DNA of 15,126 nucleotides, from positions 1 to 15,126 of the forward strand of contig JAIOQC010000003.1 in the NCBI GenBank assembly GCA_021413565.1, read 5' to 3'. The notes beneath the pieces are model-generated. The model saw only the letters and a list, made by a program, of their open reading frames with translations. It did no database searches and was not told the DNA's origin. Shown here in pieces: positions 10,514 through 15,126 of the stretch. Every line of letters begins with the position of its first letter. Within the stretch, counting starts at the first letter, position 1. Source of the stretch: Candidatus Nomurabacteria bacterium. GTDB taxonomy: Bacteria > Patescibacteriota > Minisyncoccia > Phycocordibacterales > UBA9973. The position numbers and the translations under genes were made by a program.

Positions 10514-10555
10514 AATGCTCCTTTCATCAATTAAATTGAAGAAAGGAGCATTTTT
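10514..10555. terminator. Long bidirectional terminator between the orphan gene and ychF
   Basis: Twelve-bp perfect arms AATGCTCCTTTC and GAAAGGAGCATT (10514-10525 and 10541-10552), with an inner TCAAT/ATTGA extension. A T-run follows on the plus strand. The minus-strand tail is less T-rich, so it mainly serves the plus-strand gene. Confidence 0.88.
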
Positions 10556-11625
10556 ATATCTTAAATTCAATCACATCCCCGTCTTTTACGATATATTCCT
10601 TCCCTTCTGTTCTCACCTTGCCTTTTGAGCGAGCCTCACCATAACTACCAGCATCGAGTAAGTCGCTCCAGTACACTACTTCTGCACGAATAAATTTATC
10701 TTTGAAATCTGTGTGTAATTGTCCATGCACGAGTTTCTTCCACCCCTGTTGTGAAATATGTATCAAGCCCGAGAAGTTTATAACACCCACCGATTAAATC
10801 ATTGATACCATCATGTTCACCACCGAGTTCCTTGCGGAAAATTTCTTTTTCTTCTCCTTCGAAATCTTTGAGTTCGTCTTCAATCTTCGCATCAATTAAA
10901 ATAAATTGTGAACCACCTGCAATAATCTCATCAGTCATTTCTTTGAAATATTCTGGCTTCTCTTCATCAAGATTTTTTGAGCCTGCTTTTTTATTCAAAC
11001 CATAAATCATTGGCTTACTAGTTAGCAAATTCAATTGTCGCACTTTCTTTTGTTCTTCTTCAGTGAAATCTATACTATTGGCAAGTTTGCCAAGTTCCAA
11101 AACTTTCTCAATGCGATTGAGAATACTTTCTTCGAGAATTGCTTCTTTATCACCTTTTCTTATGTCTTTTTGAATATTATTCAATCTCTTTGTGACTGTT
11201 TCAAAATCAGCCAATATCAGTTCCAGATTAATAACAGCAATATCTCTTATTGGGTCAACGCTACCATACACATGAGCGATTTCTTTGTCACCACCAGTTA
11301 ATGGAAAAAGTCTAACCATATGTAGTATCGCATCAGTCTCACGAATATTTGCTAGGAATTTATTACCCAATCCTTCACCTTTACTTGCACCTTCCACAAG
11401 CCCTGCAATGTCTACAAATTCAACAGCCGCAGGGATAGTTCTATTTGTTTTAGAAAATTCAGCGAGTTTATACAGTCTTTCATCAGGCACAGCAACAATA
11501 CCGACAGATGGGTCTATCGTACAGAATGGGTAATTCTCAGCCGGAACACACTTTTTCGTAAGCGCATTAAACAGCGTCGACTTCCCGACATTTGGCAAAC
11601 CTACAATCCCAATAGATAATGACAT
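10554..11625 (-). pseudogene. ychF: YchF/OLA1-type P-loop ATPase, frameshifted
   Basis: A nearly universal ribosome-associated TRAFAC nucleotidase. The first frame (11625 to 10696, 309 aa) has the P-loop G-L-P-N-V-G-K-S-T (9-17), D-I-A-G-L-V-E-G-A (72-80), the coiled-coil insert and the start of the TGS domain up to R-A-W-T-I. The G4-equivalent, N-x-x-E in most YchF proteins, reads N-K-K-A (211-214). The rest of the TGS domain (H-T-D-F to the C-terminal D-G-D-V-I-E-F-K-I) continues in another frame. Only one nucleotide separates the two where about 39 nt (the x-G-x-x-A-P-x-A-A-x-x segment) are expected, so ~38 nt are missing near 10716. It is either a real deletion or an assembly error. The start has an extended -10 directly upstream. 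Confidence 0.88.
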
Positions 11626-12274: not shown

Positions 12275-13156
12275 TTAATTAATTCCAGCTGATAGTATGG
12301 CAAGAGTATTTTTTTCACACCTTGGACATACGTTGTCTTCTGTTAGGACATTATACTGTTCCATTTTGCCATGTAGTTCACATACAACTCCAGCATCATT
12401 AACAGTATTTAAGTCTATGTTGAAGCCCATTCTATGCTCTTTGCAGAAGAAAAAAGTACAATTAGGAAACTTAAATTCCACAAGAAAACCACAACCTTCT
12501 TCATCTTCACAAGCTACATATACTATTCGTCGTATCTTTAATACTTCTGGGCTTAGATAAAATTCAACTTCTTCTTCCATTTCTGCTATACTTTTTATCC
12601 CCTCTAGTATATTTTCTAGATCATTGACCAAAGGACTTTCAGACCATTTCTTAAGAAGAGCATCAATTGATTCCATGTACCCTTTTAAAATTCTCTCTTT
12701 TGGGGCATTGAACCTCTTGAATGTCTCCTTTCCTTCTTTTTTATAATCATCAAGGAGCTCAGAAGTGTTCGCAATAATATCTGCTGATTTCAGTAATAGA
12801 GAATCGTTTGAGAAAGTTTTAATATGTTCTAGTGCCTCAGCCTTTCTTTCTTCCCAAGATAGAGATTTGTCTTGCTCGGTTACACTTATGACCAAATCAG
12901 ATACATTCTGACCAAACTCTTCGGCTATCATTTCTTTGGTAACCTTTTTTCCCTCAATGCTGTCCTCTATGGTGTCATGCAGTATTCCGGCTACTATAAC
13001 GTCCTCATTCGCCCCTGCAGAGGCCAGTATGAGCCCTAACGCTAGGGGATGTGTGATATACGGCACGTCTTTACCCTTTCTCTTTTGTTTCTGGTCTATT
13101 TCGTGAGTTTGTATTGCGAATTGAATTGCGTTTTGTATTTTTTGTGTATAAATCAT
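12275..13156 (-). CDS. HD-domain hydrolase (SpoT/MESH1-like) with Cys-rich C-terminus
   Basis: Residues 1-~175 form an HD_4-type domain like the (p)ppGpp hydrolase half of RelA/SpoT: Y-I-T-H (33-36), H-D (60-61) followed by E64-D65, and K-S-A-D-I-I-A-N (123-130), supplying H36, H60, D61 and D126 for metal binding. There is no synthetase domain, so it would be a hydrolase only. Residues ~196-293 form a separate domain with Cys216, 222, 233, 238, 259, 277 and 280 plus nearby His, including C-P-R-C, which suggests zinc binding. This pairing is unfamiliar. Likely substrates are alarmones or other nucleotides, but this is inferred. A TATAAT nine nucleotides before the ATG suggests a near-leaderless transcript. 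Confidence 0.8.
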   Translation of the reverse strand: MIYTQKIQNAIQFAIQTHEIDQKQKRKGKDVPYITHPLALGLILASAGANEDVIVAGILHDTIEDSIEGKKVTKEMIAEEFGQNVSDLVISVTEQDKSLSWEERKAEALEHIKTFSNDSLLLKSADIIANTSELLDDYKKEGKETFKRFNAPKERILKGYMESIDALLKKWSESPLVNDLENILEGIKSIAEMEEEVEFYLSPEVLKIRRIVYVACEDEEGCGFLVEFKFPNCTFFFCKEHRMGFNIDLNTVNDAGVVCELHGKMEQYNVLTEDNVCPRCEKNTLAILSAGIN

Positions 13157-13165
13157 ATTAATTTA

Positions 13166-13171
13166 ATTATA
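13166..13171 (-). promoter_or_regulatory. -10 element of the HD gene
   Basis: A perfect TATAAT ends nine nucleotides before the ATG at 13156, predicting a ~3-nt leader. There is no recognisable -35. Its presence allows the HD gene to be expressed even if the upstream RNA terminates. Confidence 0.4.
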
Positions 13172-13189
13172 ACTATTAATACTCTTAAC

Positions 13190-13209
13190 GCCCTAGTTGC
13201 AGACTAGGC
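13190..13209 (-). other. Stem-loop between the structured RNA and the HD gene
   Basis: CCTAGT and ACTAGG (6 bp) with loop TTGCA on the plus strand. On the minus strand its 3' half is followed by GGGCGTTAAGAG, which echoes AACTAGCGTTAAAG further up in the RNA. Not T-rich afterwards, so not a terminator. Confidence 0.5.
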
Positions 13210-13213
13210 AAAC

Positions 13214-13275
13214 AAAAAAGCGACTAAGAGATTTACACCAGTACGACATACTGATAGAAATCTCCCAACCGCTTT
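13214..13275 (-). terminator. Long hairpin terminator of the structured RNA
   Basis: Nested stems AAAGCG/CGCTTT, GAGATTT/AAATCTC and CAGTA/TACTG separated by symmetric internal loops of 5/5 and 4/4 nt, with a TGTCG loop, ending in TTTTTT on the minus strand. It shuts off transcripts starting near 13400, or acts as an attenuator for the HD gene. Confidence 0.7.
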
Positions 13276-13400
13276 AACGCTAGTTAGTCATTTATAACTT
13301 GTGGCTCATCGCAGATTTCCCAACTTGCCTACCTATTTAAAGGAGATATAAACGGTCCGATTTGCTTGCTCGGACTACAATGTTTTTAATAAAGAACTAT
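13214..13400 (-). ncRNA. Candidate structured RNA (independent ncRNA or leader of the HD gene)
   Basis: A roughly 187-nt non-coding transcript is predicted from the extended -10 at 13407-13415 to the T-run at 13214-13219. It is visibly richer in G+C and stems than surrounding intergenic DNA. Elements: stem GTCCGA/TCGGAC (13355-13375), C-C-T/A-G-G stem around AAATA, a middle region with GTTGGGAAATCTGCG repeated later as GTTGGGAGATTTC, then the terminator hairpin. A GACTAA at 13284-13289 can pair with TTAGTC in the terminator's 3' side, offering an alternative fold. It shows no match that I recognise to tmRNA, RNase P, SRP, T-box or common riboswitch cores. Identity is unknown. Confidence 0.5.
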
Positions 13401-13406
13401 GTTAGT

Positions 13407-13415
13407 ATTATAGCA
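13407..13415 (-). promoter_or_regulatory. Extended -10 promoter of the structured RNA
   Basis: TGC-TATAAT, a perfect extended -10, ends 18 nt after the stop of the 168-aa gene. No usable -35 is seen (TTTACA lies only 13 nt up). Predicted start is about 13400. Confidence 0.6.
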
Positions 13416-13432
13416 TAAATTTTATTGTAAAG

Positions 13433-13939
13433 CTACGTTGTTTTATTAGAAACTAACCCAGAAAATATGCCCGCCAAAGATAGCTTTTCTTCTACCTGCA
13501 TCTTATCAACTAGATCTTTTATGAGTGCTTCGTTTTCCAAAGCAACCCCACTAGAAATACTAAAACCTGTTGATTTGTTGGTTATATAGGAAGAAACGAC
13601 AAATCCTTTTGCGTCGCACAATTCTTTATTGAATTGTATCCAGCTTTTAGCGACCCCGAGTGCAGTTTCATAATTTGAGGACAATTTACTTTCTGTATTT
13701 TCTATTCTTAAATTACTATCCTCTTTTTTCCTCTGGATTGCAACATGCAACTTCAGCACTGTGTGAAAATAAGCAAGACGATGCCAATGACCAGCAACCA
13801 TTCTGTCATACTCATACTTGTTTATTTCTATTGCTACATTGTCAACTTGGTAAAAATACCTACCATAATATTCTATTACTTCTGCAAAATATCTAAAATC
13901 ATTATTCAACGAGACAACTGCTGTTTTTTCTACCTTCAT
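13433..13939 (-). CDS. Unknown 168-aa protein under SAM-I riboswitch control
   Basis: I do not recognise the family. The protein is soluble, with no membrane segment, and appears mainly helical in the middle (residues ~45-110, rich in Tyr/His near G-H-W-H-R-L-A-Y) and C-terminal third. It is preceded by a SAM-I aptamer and terminator, so it should be made when S-adenosylmethionine is scarce. The ATG lies 4 nt after the terminator T-run. AGAGGA in the terminator's 3' arm is the only Shine-Dalgarno candidate and would be masked by the hairpin. SAM-I switches normally govern methionine/SAM synthesis or transport genes, which this is not. It is downstream of a type III restriction locus. Confidence 0.78.
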   Translation of the reverse strand: MKVEKTAVVSLNNDFRYFAEVIEYYGRYFYQVDNVAIEINKYEYDRMVAGHWHRLAYFHTVLKLHVAIQRKKEDSNLRIENTESKLSSNYETALGVAKSWIQFNKELCDAKGFVVSSYITNKSTGFSISSGVALENEALIKDLVDKMQVEEKLSLAGIFSGLVSNKTT

Positions 13940-13943
13940 AAAT

Positions 13944-13967
13944 AAAAAATTCCTCTAATAAGAGGAA
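13944..13967 (-). terminator. Riboswitch expression platform: terminator
   Basis: TTCCTCT/AGAGGAA, a perfect 7-bp stem with loop TATT, followed by six T's. Its 5' arm overlaps the 3' arm of the antiterminator. Confidence 0.88.
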
Positions 13968-14005
13968 AGATTTTTTGTGTGGACTAGACACAAACACATC
14001 TTTCC
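13964..14005 (-). promoter_or_regulatory. Riboswitch antiterminator
   Basis: GGAAAGAT (14005-13998) is perfectly complementary to ATCTTTCC (13971-13964), with further GTTTGTG/CACACAAA pairing inside. The first half is the 3' strand of aptamer helix P1; the second is the 5' part of the terminator. Pairing therefore excludes both, the standard SAM-I OFF-switch logic. Confidence 0.85.
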
Positions 14006-14100
14006 TGACACTTTCGTGTCTGGTTGGATTTAGCACCTTACAATTGCAGGTTGCTGTGGGGTCATCGAGCCAATTCTCTACCACCACTCTTGATCAAACT
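13995..14100 (-). ncRNA. SAM-I (S-box) riboswitch aptamer
   Basis: Conserved SAM-I elements occur in order: ATCAAGAG at the start, GGTGG, the kink-turn CGATGA, AGCAACC, P3 ACCT/AGGT, GGTGCTAAATCC, P4 GACAC/GTGTC capped by a GAAA tetraloop, and terminal GGAAAGAT. Loop TTGG of P2 can pair with CCAA after P3, the expected pseudoknot. P1 appears short (ATC/GAT) with mismatches beyond, which is unusual. It binds S-adenosylmethionine and, when bound, favours the downstream terminator. Confidence 0.95.
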
Positions 14101-14116
14101 ATTCAGTTGTAAATAC

Positions 14117-14146
14117 ACTATATCATTCTTTTACAAATCTTGCCAA
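14117..14146 (-). promoter_or_regulatory. Promoter of the SAM riboswitch transcript
   Basis: -35 TTGGCA (14141-14146), 18-nt spacer ending in TGA, -10 TATAGT (14117-14122). Predicted start is about 14110, ten nucleotides before the aptamer. The -35 lies within the last codons of the 43-aa gene. Confidence 0.65.
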
Positions 14147-14262
14147 ACTTCTAATGCTTCGTCGACATCAAGCCCTGTCTCATCAACAAAATCTTGAAGT
14201 TCTTCTGCTTCCTCTAAACTTAAATCATTATCTTTTGCTATTTCAAATGTTTCTTCGTCCAT
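14131..14262 (-). CDS. Small acidic helical protein (43 aa)
   Basis: A 43-aa reading frame starts 3 nt after the stop of the HEPN-like gene, an arrangement typical of translational coupling. The peptide is very acidic (about 16 Asp/Glu, 2 Lys/Arg counting) and helical, with two similar motifs L-S-L-E-E-A-E-E-L and L-D-V-D-E-A-L-E-V. Its role is unknown; given its position a modulator or antitoxin-like partner of the upstream protein is possible but unproven. No Shine-Dalgarno is visible. Confidence 0.6.
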   Translation of the reverse strand: MDEETFEIAKDNDLSLEEAEELQDFVDETGLDVDEALEVWQDL

Positions 14263-14265
14263 ATA

Positions 14266-14832
14266 TTATTTTATTTCATTAAACTTTACTCTCTTTTCTT
14301 CAAAAGCAATCATTGATAATGAATCAAGGAATGATACAAGATTTGGATTGTTAAACCCATTTATAAGATTTGGTTTTGAAGCAAAAGCTCCATATCGTAT
14401 AGATTCAAGATTCTTCAAGTAAATATATTTACCATCTTTAAAAAAAATTCTATATTCATTTATATAACCATTTGAATTTTCGATTTTAACATCTTCAATG
14501 CCCATTTTATTCATGACTTCCGCATTTGCACGAAACAAGTCATCTAAACGGTGACCGAATTTTCGAAAAGAATTATCTATTAACATTTTTATACAATCCT
14601 CACTTGAATCTTTATTTTTTAAACAAATCTCAGAAGCTATAATAACTTTAAGAAAATTTTCAACGCACTGCGTACTAAGTAGTTCTATTGTATAACAATT
14701 ATTACTATTACTAACACTGAGTTCTTTTACTGCATCAAGATATGCCTTACTAATAGTCCATAAATACCCAACATTCCCAACCATTAAAAATGACGGTTTA
14801 AATACTATTTCTTTTTTATTTTCTTTACTCAT
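14266..14832 (-). CDS. HEPN-like protein downstream of type III restriction subunit
   Basis: A mostly helical 188-aa protein. The pattern E50-L-L-S-x-x-C-V-E-N-F-L-K (50-62), G-H-R-L-D-D-L-F (93-100) and L-E-S-I-R-Y-G (142-148) resembles HEPN-type proteins, where an E-x-x-L-K helix is followed by G-H-x-L-x-x-L and a late R-Y. The classical catalytic R-x4-6-H is not evident, so it could be a non-catalytic or nucleotide-binding member. It begins 8 nt after the Res stop and is followed by the 43-aa gene, forming one operon. An accessory defence role is inferred from context. The family call is moderate. Confidence 0.6.
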   Translation of the reverse strand: MSKENKKEIVFKPSFLMVGNVGYLWTISKAYLDAVKELSVSNSNNCYTIELLSTQCVENFLKVIIASEICLKNKDSSEDCIKMLIDNSFRKFGHRLDDLFRANAEVMNKMGIEDVKIENSNGYINEYRIFFKDGKYIYLKNLESIRYGAFASKPNLINGFNNPNLVSFLDSLSMIAFEEKRVKFNEIK

Positions 14833-14840
14833 TGTGTGGT

Positions 14841-15126
14841 CTATTTATTATTTCTCCACCCGTCGTAACTATCAGCCTTTTCGAATTTTATACCCGTATT
14901 TATCGCTTCAAAGTGTTTCTCTCCACACTTGATTTTAGAGTCTTCAATATATCTTAAATTCTCAGATAAAATACTACCCTTAGTTTCAATTACAAAATAA
15001 AGTTTATCTTCACCGTTTTTATTTAGAACAACAGCCCAGTCTGGATTATAAGAACCTAGTGGTGTTTCAACCTTAAACCATGCTGGTAATTTAATAAATA
15101 TTTTTACATATCTATCATTATTTAAT
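14841..15126 (-). CDS. res: Type III restriction enzyme Res subunit, C-terminal end, cut by window edge
   Basis: The last 94 or so residues of a protein that normally approaches 1000 aa. They contain the endonuclease signature: L-P-A-W-F-K-V-x-T-P-L-G-S-Y-N-P-D-W-A-V-V, then L-Y-F-V-I-E-T-K-G, that is PD...ExK, followed by I-K-C-G-x-K-H-F-E-A and V/I-K-F-E-x-A-D-S-Y, all typical of type III Res proteins. Res supplies ATP-dependent translocation and cleavage together with the SAM-dependent Mod subunit, which would lie further right outside the window. The stop TAG is at 14841-14843. Confidence 0.9.
   Translation of the reverse strand, partial: LNNDRYVKIFIKLPAWFKVETPLGSYNPDWAVVLNKNGEDKLYFVIETKGSILSENLRYIEDSKIKCGEKHFEAINTGIKFEKADSYDGWRNNK

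Follow-up and report, generated by a model that had tools for sequence, protein, structure and literature searches.

The window, i.e., the whole stretch of 15,126 nucleotides analysed here, closes with a series of minus-strand features in which a SAM-I riboswitch separates the end of a type III restriction gene from a 168-aa open reading frame (ORF). Genomes are denoted below by G numbers, the window genome being G000. In the direction of transcription, the features are as follows.

14841..15125, minus strand: C-terminal 94 aa of Res, the restriction subunit of a type III system, truncated where the contig stops (PF19778, PADLOC REase_III)
14266..14832, minus strand: 188-aa ORF between Res and the switch (ORF list; no family match)
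14131..14262, minus strand: 43-aa acidic ORF directly upstream of the switch, putatively coding, its end overlapping the promoter-like site
14117..14146, minus strand: promoter-like site TTGGCA-18-TATAGT with an extended TG (site scan)
13993..14099, minus strand: SAM-I aptamer, RF00162 (covariance model match)
13964..14005, minus strand: predicted antiterminator, GGAAAGAT (13998-14005) with ATCTTTCC (13964-13971), enclosing a hairpin with a CUAGUCC-type loop (predicted fold)
13940..13967, minus strand: predicted intrinsic terminator with T run (fold and terminator scan; stem 13950-13967)
13951..13956, minus strand: Shine-Dalgarno-like AGAGGA within the terminator 3' arm (sequence reading)
13433..13939, minus strand: 168-aa ORF behind the switch, joining a family A part to a family C part (ORF list and sequence comparison)
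13712..13939, minus strand: family A part, residues 1-76 (identity to a G138 protein, and profile)
13436..13711, minus strand: family C part, about residues 77-168 (identity to P0002 and a G172 protein, and profile)

The Res fragment is recognized by PF19778 (E 6.5e-31) and PADLOC REase_III (E 1.3e-27), as well as by an NCBIfam type III endonuclease model, in this last case far under the whole-protein cut-off. A reading of this DNA made from the sequence alone (the sequence-only reading) had placed both the Mod and the Res subunits of a type III system upstream of the switch; the Res end is there, and Mod is absent from the window because the contig ends inside Res. The 188-aa ORF had no match in the Pfam, PADLOC, PHROG, or NCBIfam libraries, and the 43-aa ORF had a single sub-cut-off Pfam match. 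The GC content of the last full kilobase of the window (30%) is the lowest of 15, within a narrow range of 30-37%.

Downstream of the 168-aa ORF, positions 13157-13345 (minus strand) form a structured intergenic element, marked by copies of a TTGGGA(A/G)AT motif and a strong hairpin at 13205-13290 (-31.4 kcal/mol, z -5.2). The element had no Rfam match; a 73% identical relative (175 nt) lies in G006, directly upstream of restriction-modification (R-M) genes, and the hairpin arms differ between the two copies with the pairing retained. Farther away, ychF (10554-11625, minus strand) is apparently split by a frameshift into 309-aa and 78-aa ORFs, perhaps through an assembly error.

Anatomy and relatives of the SAM-I leader

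RF00162 matches positions 13993-14099 of the minus strand over its full length (model positions 1-108), scoring 58.9 bits against a gathering cut-off of 44.4 (E 1e-11), so that the complete SAM-I riboswitch recognized in the sequence-only reading is upheld by the covariance model. At E <= 0.001, the genome, a 500-kb assembly of 102 contigs that is 84% complete, has no second RF00162 match. Apart from SAM-I, Rfam yielded no RNA in the window at its cut-offs and chance-level matches only in positions 13140-14265. The promoter that had been placed in front of the switch is likewise seen as a promoter-like site; with five such sites in the scanned stretch against 4.2 expected, what singles it out is where it lies and its resemblance to related leaders, most of which carry a TGnTATAAT-like block in the same place.

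By fold prediction, the antiterminator GGAAAGAT/ATCTTTCC (-14.7 kcal/mol) competes with the terminator TTCCTCT-TATT-AGAGGAA and its T run (-8.6 kcal/mol). Two terminator-like sites were found against 0.5 expected, the second being the identical stem on the opposite strand. Folded without constraint, the leader is most stable with the antiterminator formed (-44.3 kcal/mol), and forcing the three Watson-Crick pairs of P1 gives -40.0 kcal/mol with the terminator formed. Since the antiterminator fold is the more stable one, SAM would have to bind for the terminator to prevail, which is the usual OFF logic of the SAM-I family. The window's P1 is weak (of 8 modelled pairs, 5 form and 3 are mismatches); on the predicted folds it is mutually exclusive with the antiterminator, and a terminator is present, which favors the OFF switch proposed earlier. 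The AGAGGA motif lies inside the 3' arm of the terminator, so that translation might be gated as well.

SAM-I units were found in 31 of 100 relatives scanned and, in the same family, in 39 of 147 genomes, with 44 matches. Behind these 44 lie metK in 33 cases (including one frameshifted metK and one after an intervening ORF) and other genes in 9, and two run off their contigs. A sample of the class gave 42 matches (three of them already known) in 40 of 236 genomes; with the four weakest (G598, G537, G579, and G587) left out, metK follows at 19 of 27 new loci (other genes at 7, contig end at 1) and at 4 of 8 further loci (other genes at 2, unclear at 2). No clear gene was seen downstream of SAM-I in G659 and G553, and some of the matches are below the family cut-off, including those in G011 (43.2 bits) and G649 (36.5 bits). 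These counts indicate that a minority of SAM-I units in these bacteria serve something besides metK. An order-wide search with the leader found matches, mostly partial, in 24 of 397 genomes. In the window genome, metK was not found, a weak absence given its 84% completeness. Within genus g1, metK is present in 10 of 24 genomes (9 of the 21 well-completed ones), a patchiness suggesting that SAM supply may differ among close relatives.

Seven of the nine non-metK leaders of the family, those of G000, G138, G172, G176, G182, G010, and G006, constitute class X; where a genome has two leaders, the non-metK copy was compared. They are 71-86% mutually identical over ~200 bases, and the window leader is 36-60% identical to other leaders, the exceptions being the metK leaders of G150, G014, and G111 (63-70%) and the contig-end leader of G168 (67%). 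In a maximum-likelihood tree, class X falls on one side of a branch (99/88) separating it from the other non-metK leaders; genera g1 and g17 are interleaved within it, and some metK leaders are placed inside its clade. The antiterminator is found in all seven leaders and the terminator in six (not in G138); the CUAGUCC-type loop is nearly constant, and stem bases vary with the pairing kept. Four of these genomes (G006, G138, G172, and G176) carry, besides the class-X unit, a separate metK with a SAM-I leader of its own. Loss of metK alone therefore does not account for class X, and a metK relic was rejected, or at least weakened, as a candidate on this ground. We read class X as a metK-type leader that appears to have been recruited and later moved between genera.

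Payload families A and C

At the thresholds used, the 168-aa protein had no match in Pfam, NCBIfam, PADLOC, or PHROG, and in particular none to an enzyme, transporter, toxin, or nuclease. It is thus as unrecognized as it was in the sequence-only reading, and Pfam and NCBIfam do not make its gene a known SAM/methionine gene or transport component. Residues 15-76 share 52% identity over 62 residues with an 89-aa protein of G138, and the family A profile, which includes the window's own row, matches 13712..13939 exactly (E 4.5e-38). Residues 71-168 are 73% identical to P0002 over 98 residues, and residues 77-165 are 48% identical (over 92 residues) to a 153-aa protein of G172; a family C profile made without the window matches 13442-13714 (E 2.1e-30). 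The A-C fusion was seen in the window genome only, and its junction coincides with a short similar sequence.

A joint profile matched 54 database proteins (the window protein, 5 of family A, and 48 aligned as family C), and the family A profile matched 104. Where named, these are hypothetical proteins and, where the organism is given, come from Patescibacteria, Paceibacterota, or Moranbacteria; one family A record, from Verrucomicrobia, is outside the window's group. No recorded function was found for families A and C. A Pfam search of 34 family A proteins gave weak scattered matches only, with 2 TAT signals; PADLOC matched neither P0021 (family C) nor P0051 (family A). Fold comparisons for the payload proteins gave no clear match, an alpha-lytic protease prodomain-like fold being a candidate weighed for family C. 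Net charge (K+R minus D+E) is 0 for the window protein and averages +1.6 in family C (n = 47, range -9 to +16) and +4.0 in family A (n = 103, range -6 to +14); an acidic DNA-mimic anti-restriction protein was rejected, or at least weakened, as a candidate by this near-neutral charge.

Payloads change from one class-X leader to the next. The window has its 168-aa ORF and G138 has ORFs of 89 and 92 aa; in G172, a cysteine-rich protein accompanies one of 153 aa. G006 and G010 carry proteins of ~87-89 and 143-165 aa, G176 one of 138 aa, and G182 one of 55 aa. Family C was detected in three genomes (in overlapping searches of 147, 383, and 379 genomes), each time within a SAM-I unit, and both convincing family A matches in 147 genomes are the first gene behind SAM-I. 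The N terminus of P0023 reads like a translated riboswitch platform (compare G172), so that its gene, too, probably lies behind a class-X type leader. In G774, a member of a different family, the SAM-I match (53.8 bits) is clearly unlike class X in sequence. Another uncharacterized family, of 133-142 aa, forms the first ORF behind SAM-I in G611, G087, and G774 (L180, L183, and L100). In two families, SAM-I (weak in G649) precedes a two-gene unit in G562 and G649 (L178 and L189) that encodes a cobalamin adenosyltransferase-like protein (PF01923, E 3.2e-24 in G562) and a 174-183-aa partner.

Restriction-modification neighborhood and possible mobility

Co-occurrence of the 168-aa protein's homologs with SAM-I aptamers or R-M systems, named as a check in the sequence-only reading, is seen: at all four A/C loci inspected, the window included, R-M genes lie 0.1-4.3 kb upstream on the same strand. 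These four loci, and P0023 through its own sequence, make up the genomic contexts inspected, against 48 database proteins that align as family C and 104 that match the family A profile.

G000 (window): type III Res end, 0.7 kb upstream, same strand
G774: type III Mod and Res, 2.1 kb upstream, same strand
G172: type I M and S, 4.3 kb upstream, same strand
G138: C5 and N4/N6 methylases with AlwI-like nucleases (type II), 0.1 kb upstream, same strand

Given the clearly different SAM-I leader of G774, the link of A/C payloads to SAM-I and R-M probably reflects function.

More generally, 12 of 20 non-metK SAM-I loci have no clear R-M gene within ~8 kb by the detectors used, counting among them G182, with a C5-methylase-like ORF ~5 kb off on the other strand, G611, with a weak match, and G010, where a contig start 3 kb upstream of the switch limits the view. 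R-M genes near the other 8 (G000, G138, G172, G006, G017b, G697, G616, and G774), versus 4 of 37 metK switches, give p 0.016 in an unequal comparison, the non-metK loci being judged on all evidence and the metK loci only by the profiles built for this analysis, with G774, which joined the 20 via its family C gene and not via the SAM-I scan, biasing toward a link. With equal detectors, methylases are near 5 of 20 non-metK versus 4 of 37 metK switches by profiles (p 0.25, in a test that dropped same-genome query matches and so also lost G172, G774, G616, and G000) and near 5 of 20 versus 2 of 37 by motif search (p 0.08). As neither is significant, a general R-M enrichment beside non-metK switches is only suggestive. 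SAM-I units that precede uncharacterized small proteins recur, and some of them are tied to R-M genes. In G017 (L033 9747-10075), a SAM-I unit (G017b) precedes a 27-aa hydrophobic ORF, behind which come a C5 methylase and more genes of R-M-like type; the metK SAM-I unit of the same genome also adjoins two C5 methylases.

In G176, G182, and G011, the SAM-I unit has a serine recombinase gene nearby (Pfam Resolvase and Recombinase) that adjoins or overlaps a tRNA gene; the window has no serine recombinase gene. LOOT RNA (RF03000) occurs near two recombinase-adjacent SAM-I units (L092 11533-11655 and L090 7865-7987). The leader had no match in phages and one weak match in plasmids (in Priestia, covering 37% of the query); P0002 and P0118 had none in either, and no relative of the leader core, of the window protein, or of either payload family turned up in scans of viral contigs. 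A phage or plasmid origin is therefore unsupported by these searches. Parts of PMC12455944 report that horizontally acquired genes of Patescibacteria are enriched in defense functions and describe an island in which a type I R-M system is present in full. The SAM-I leader might travel together with its payload and the R-M genes.

A proposed SAM-shortage response beside R-M genes

The riboswitch anatomy, a leader class mixed across genera, the payload families, and the repeated position of these families in SAM-I units downstream of R-M genes are computed observations. R-M systems need SAM for protection, and those of types I and III also need it for, or are aided by it in, cutting. In the working mechanism, a SAM-shortage guard for an R-M island, high SAM would let the aptamer form, followed by the terminator, and the gene would be off; when SAM falls, the antiterminator would form, transcription would run on, and the gene, encoding an accessory protein of the island, would be expressed. 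The RNA would thus respond to SAM in the OFF direction, and the protein would act when SAM-dependent methylation or restriction fails. A protein made at low SAM beside R-M genes would be well placed to prevent self-damage or to replace a disabled system, and the recurrence of SAM-I leaders with small payloads beside R-M genes in several lineages, the payloads apparently swapped behind a near-constant leader, is consistent with such a role. The general statement, in which falling SAM turns on accessory proteins of R-M islands through an OFF switch, is given a probability of roughly 0.55. That the payload specifically restrains restriction or limits self-damage is less likely than not. Type I and III restriction itself needs, or is helped by, SAM, so that a guard against it would be less needed when SAM is low. 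The wider proposal of a mobile, modular SAM-shortage response in Patescibacteria, in which a travelling SAM-I leader switches on exchangeable small proteins beside R-M genes, is tentative, with the odds somewhat against it.

A special form of the general statement is a back-up defense, as suggested in the sequence-only reading: phage enzymes would destroy SAM and disable restriction, and the switch would release an antiviral or abortive effector. Two type III neighbors and one of type I are SAM dependent, the varied payloads behind one leader class resemble effector turnover, and G017b precedes its short hydrophobic ORF beside R-M genes. Several neighbors are type II, though, and type II restriction generally cuts without SAM; we know of no SAM-cleaving phage of these hosts, and the window protein had no match to a toxin, to a nuclease, or in PADLOC, where P0021 of family C and P0051 of family A had none either. 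The idea, unlikely as it seems, is kept alive by the SAM lyase of phage T3, which, according to parts of PMC11842806, blocks BREX by SAM depletion, showing that phages can turn the loss of SAM against their hosts.

The payload could instead belong to the SAM/methionine economy, saving, importing, or recycling SAM or a precursor, with the R-M genes nearby as a main SAM consumer or as neighbors in a shared variable region. This would be the usual role of SAM-I, borne out by metK behind 33 of the 44 family matches, and the missing metK of the window genome (a weak point at 84% completeness) and its patchiness in the genus would fit. The cobalamin adenosyltransferase-like payload in G562, with a relative in G649, keeps salvage as a rival. 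Against it, the window protein and 34 family A proteins lack enzyme or transporter matches, payloads differ among loci of one leader class, and four class-X genomes have a separate SAM-I metK; the salvage helper offered by the sequence-only reading as the simpler alternative has lost ground, and the economy reading as a whole is quite improbable. Least probable is a metK leader captured by chance before an unrelated or dying ORF, possibly an artifactual fusion, to which the single-genome fusion, its junction at a short similar sequence, the weak P1, and the metK leaders inside the class-X clade would point, but which is countered by a leader and platform conserved across two genera with pairing-preserving changes, by payload homologs that other genomes also carry in SAM-I units, in one case behind a divergent leader, and by the four genomes that retain both switches.

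If the SAM-shortage response holds, RNA metabolite sensing would be joined to genome defense via a conserved, apparently horizontally moving SAM-I unit, and the cell or island would react to depletion of its methyl donor, e.g., by phage or through a lost host supply; it would also open a way to study families A and C. In titles and abstracts, the subscription literature being thinly covered, nothing was found that ties a SAM-I switch to R-M genes, and PMC11665869, the single paper retrieved with both "riboswitch" and "Patescibacteria," treats riboswitches in the parts seen as expression tools only.

Among known systems, the closest is the SAM-I (S-box) riboswitch of RF00162 itself, with which the window leader shares the aptamer core, the predicted P1-antiterminator-terminator logic, and a promoter-like site in front. 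Methionine and SAM genes are the textbook targets of SAM-I riboswitches, whereas the window switch precedes an uncharacterized fusion protein beside R-M genes and no recognized methionine/SAM gene. The metK leaders of the same family have a related aptamer and platform, including a hairpin with a UAGUC-containing loop in G150, G014, and G111; unlike them, the leaders of class X resemble each other more closely across genera (71-86%) and stand before changing small genes. R-M accessory or controller genes and anti-restriction proteins offer a likeness in being small genes beside R-M that could tune it, but there is no sequence match, and the near-neutral window protein differs in charge from Ocr, an acidic DNA mimic. 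With the T3 SAM lyase acting on BREX, as presented in parts of PMC11842806, the window would share the SAM level as the point of contest in phage defense; the lyase is a counter-defense enzyme of the phage, whereas in the window an RNA sensor on the host side would detect the drop.
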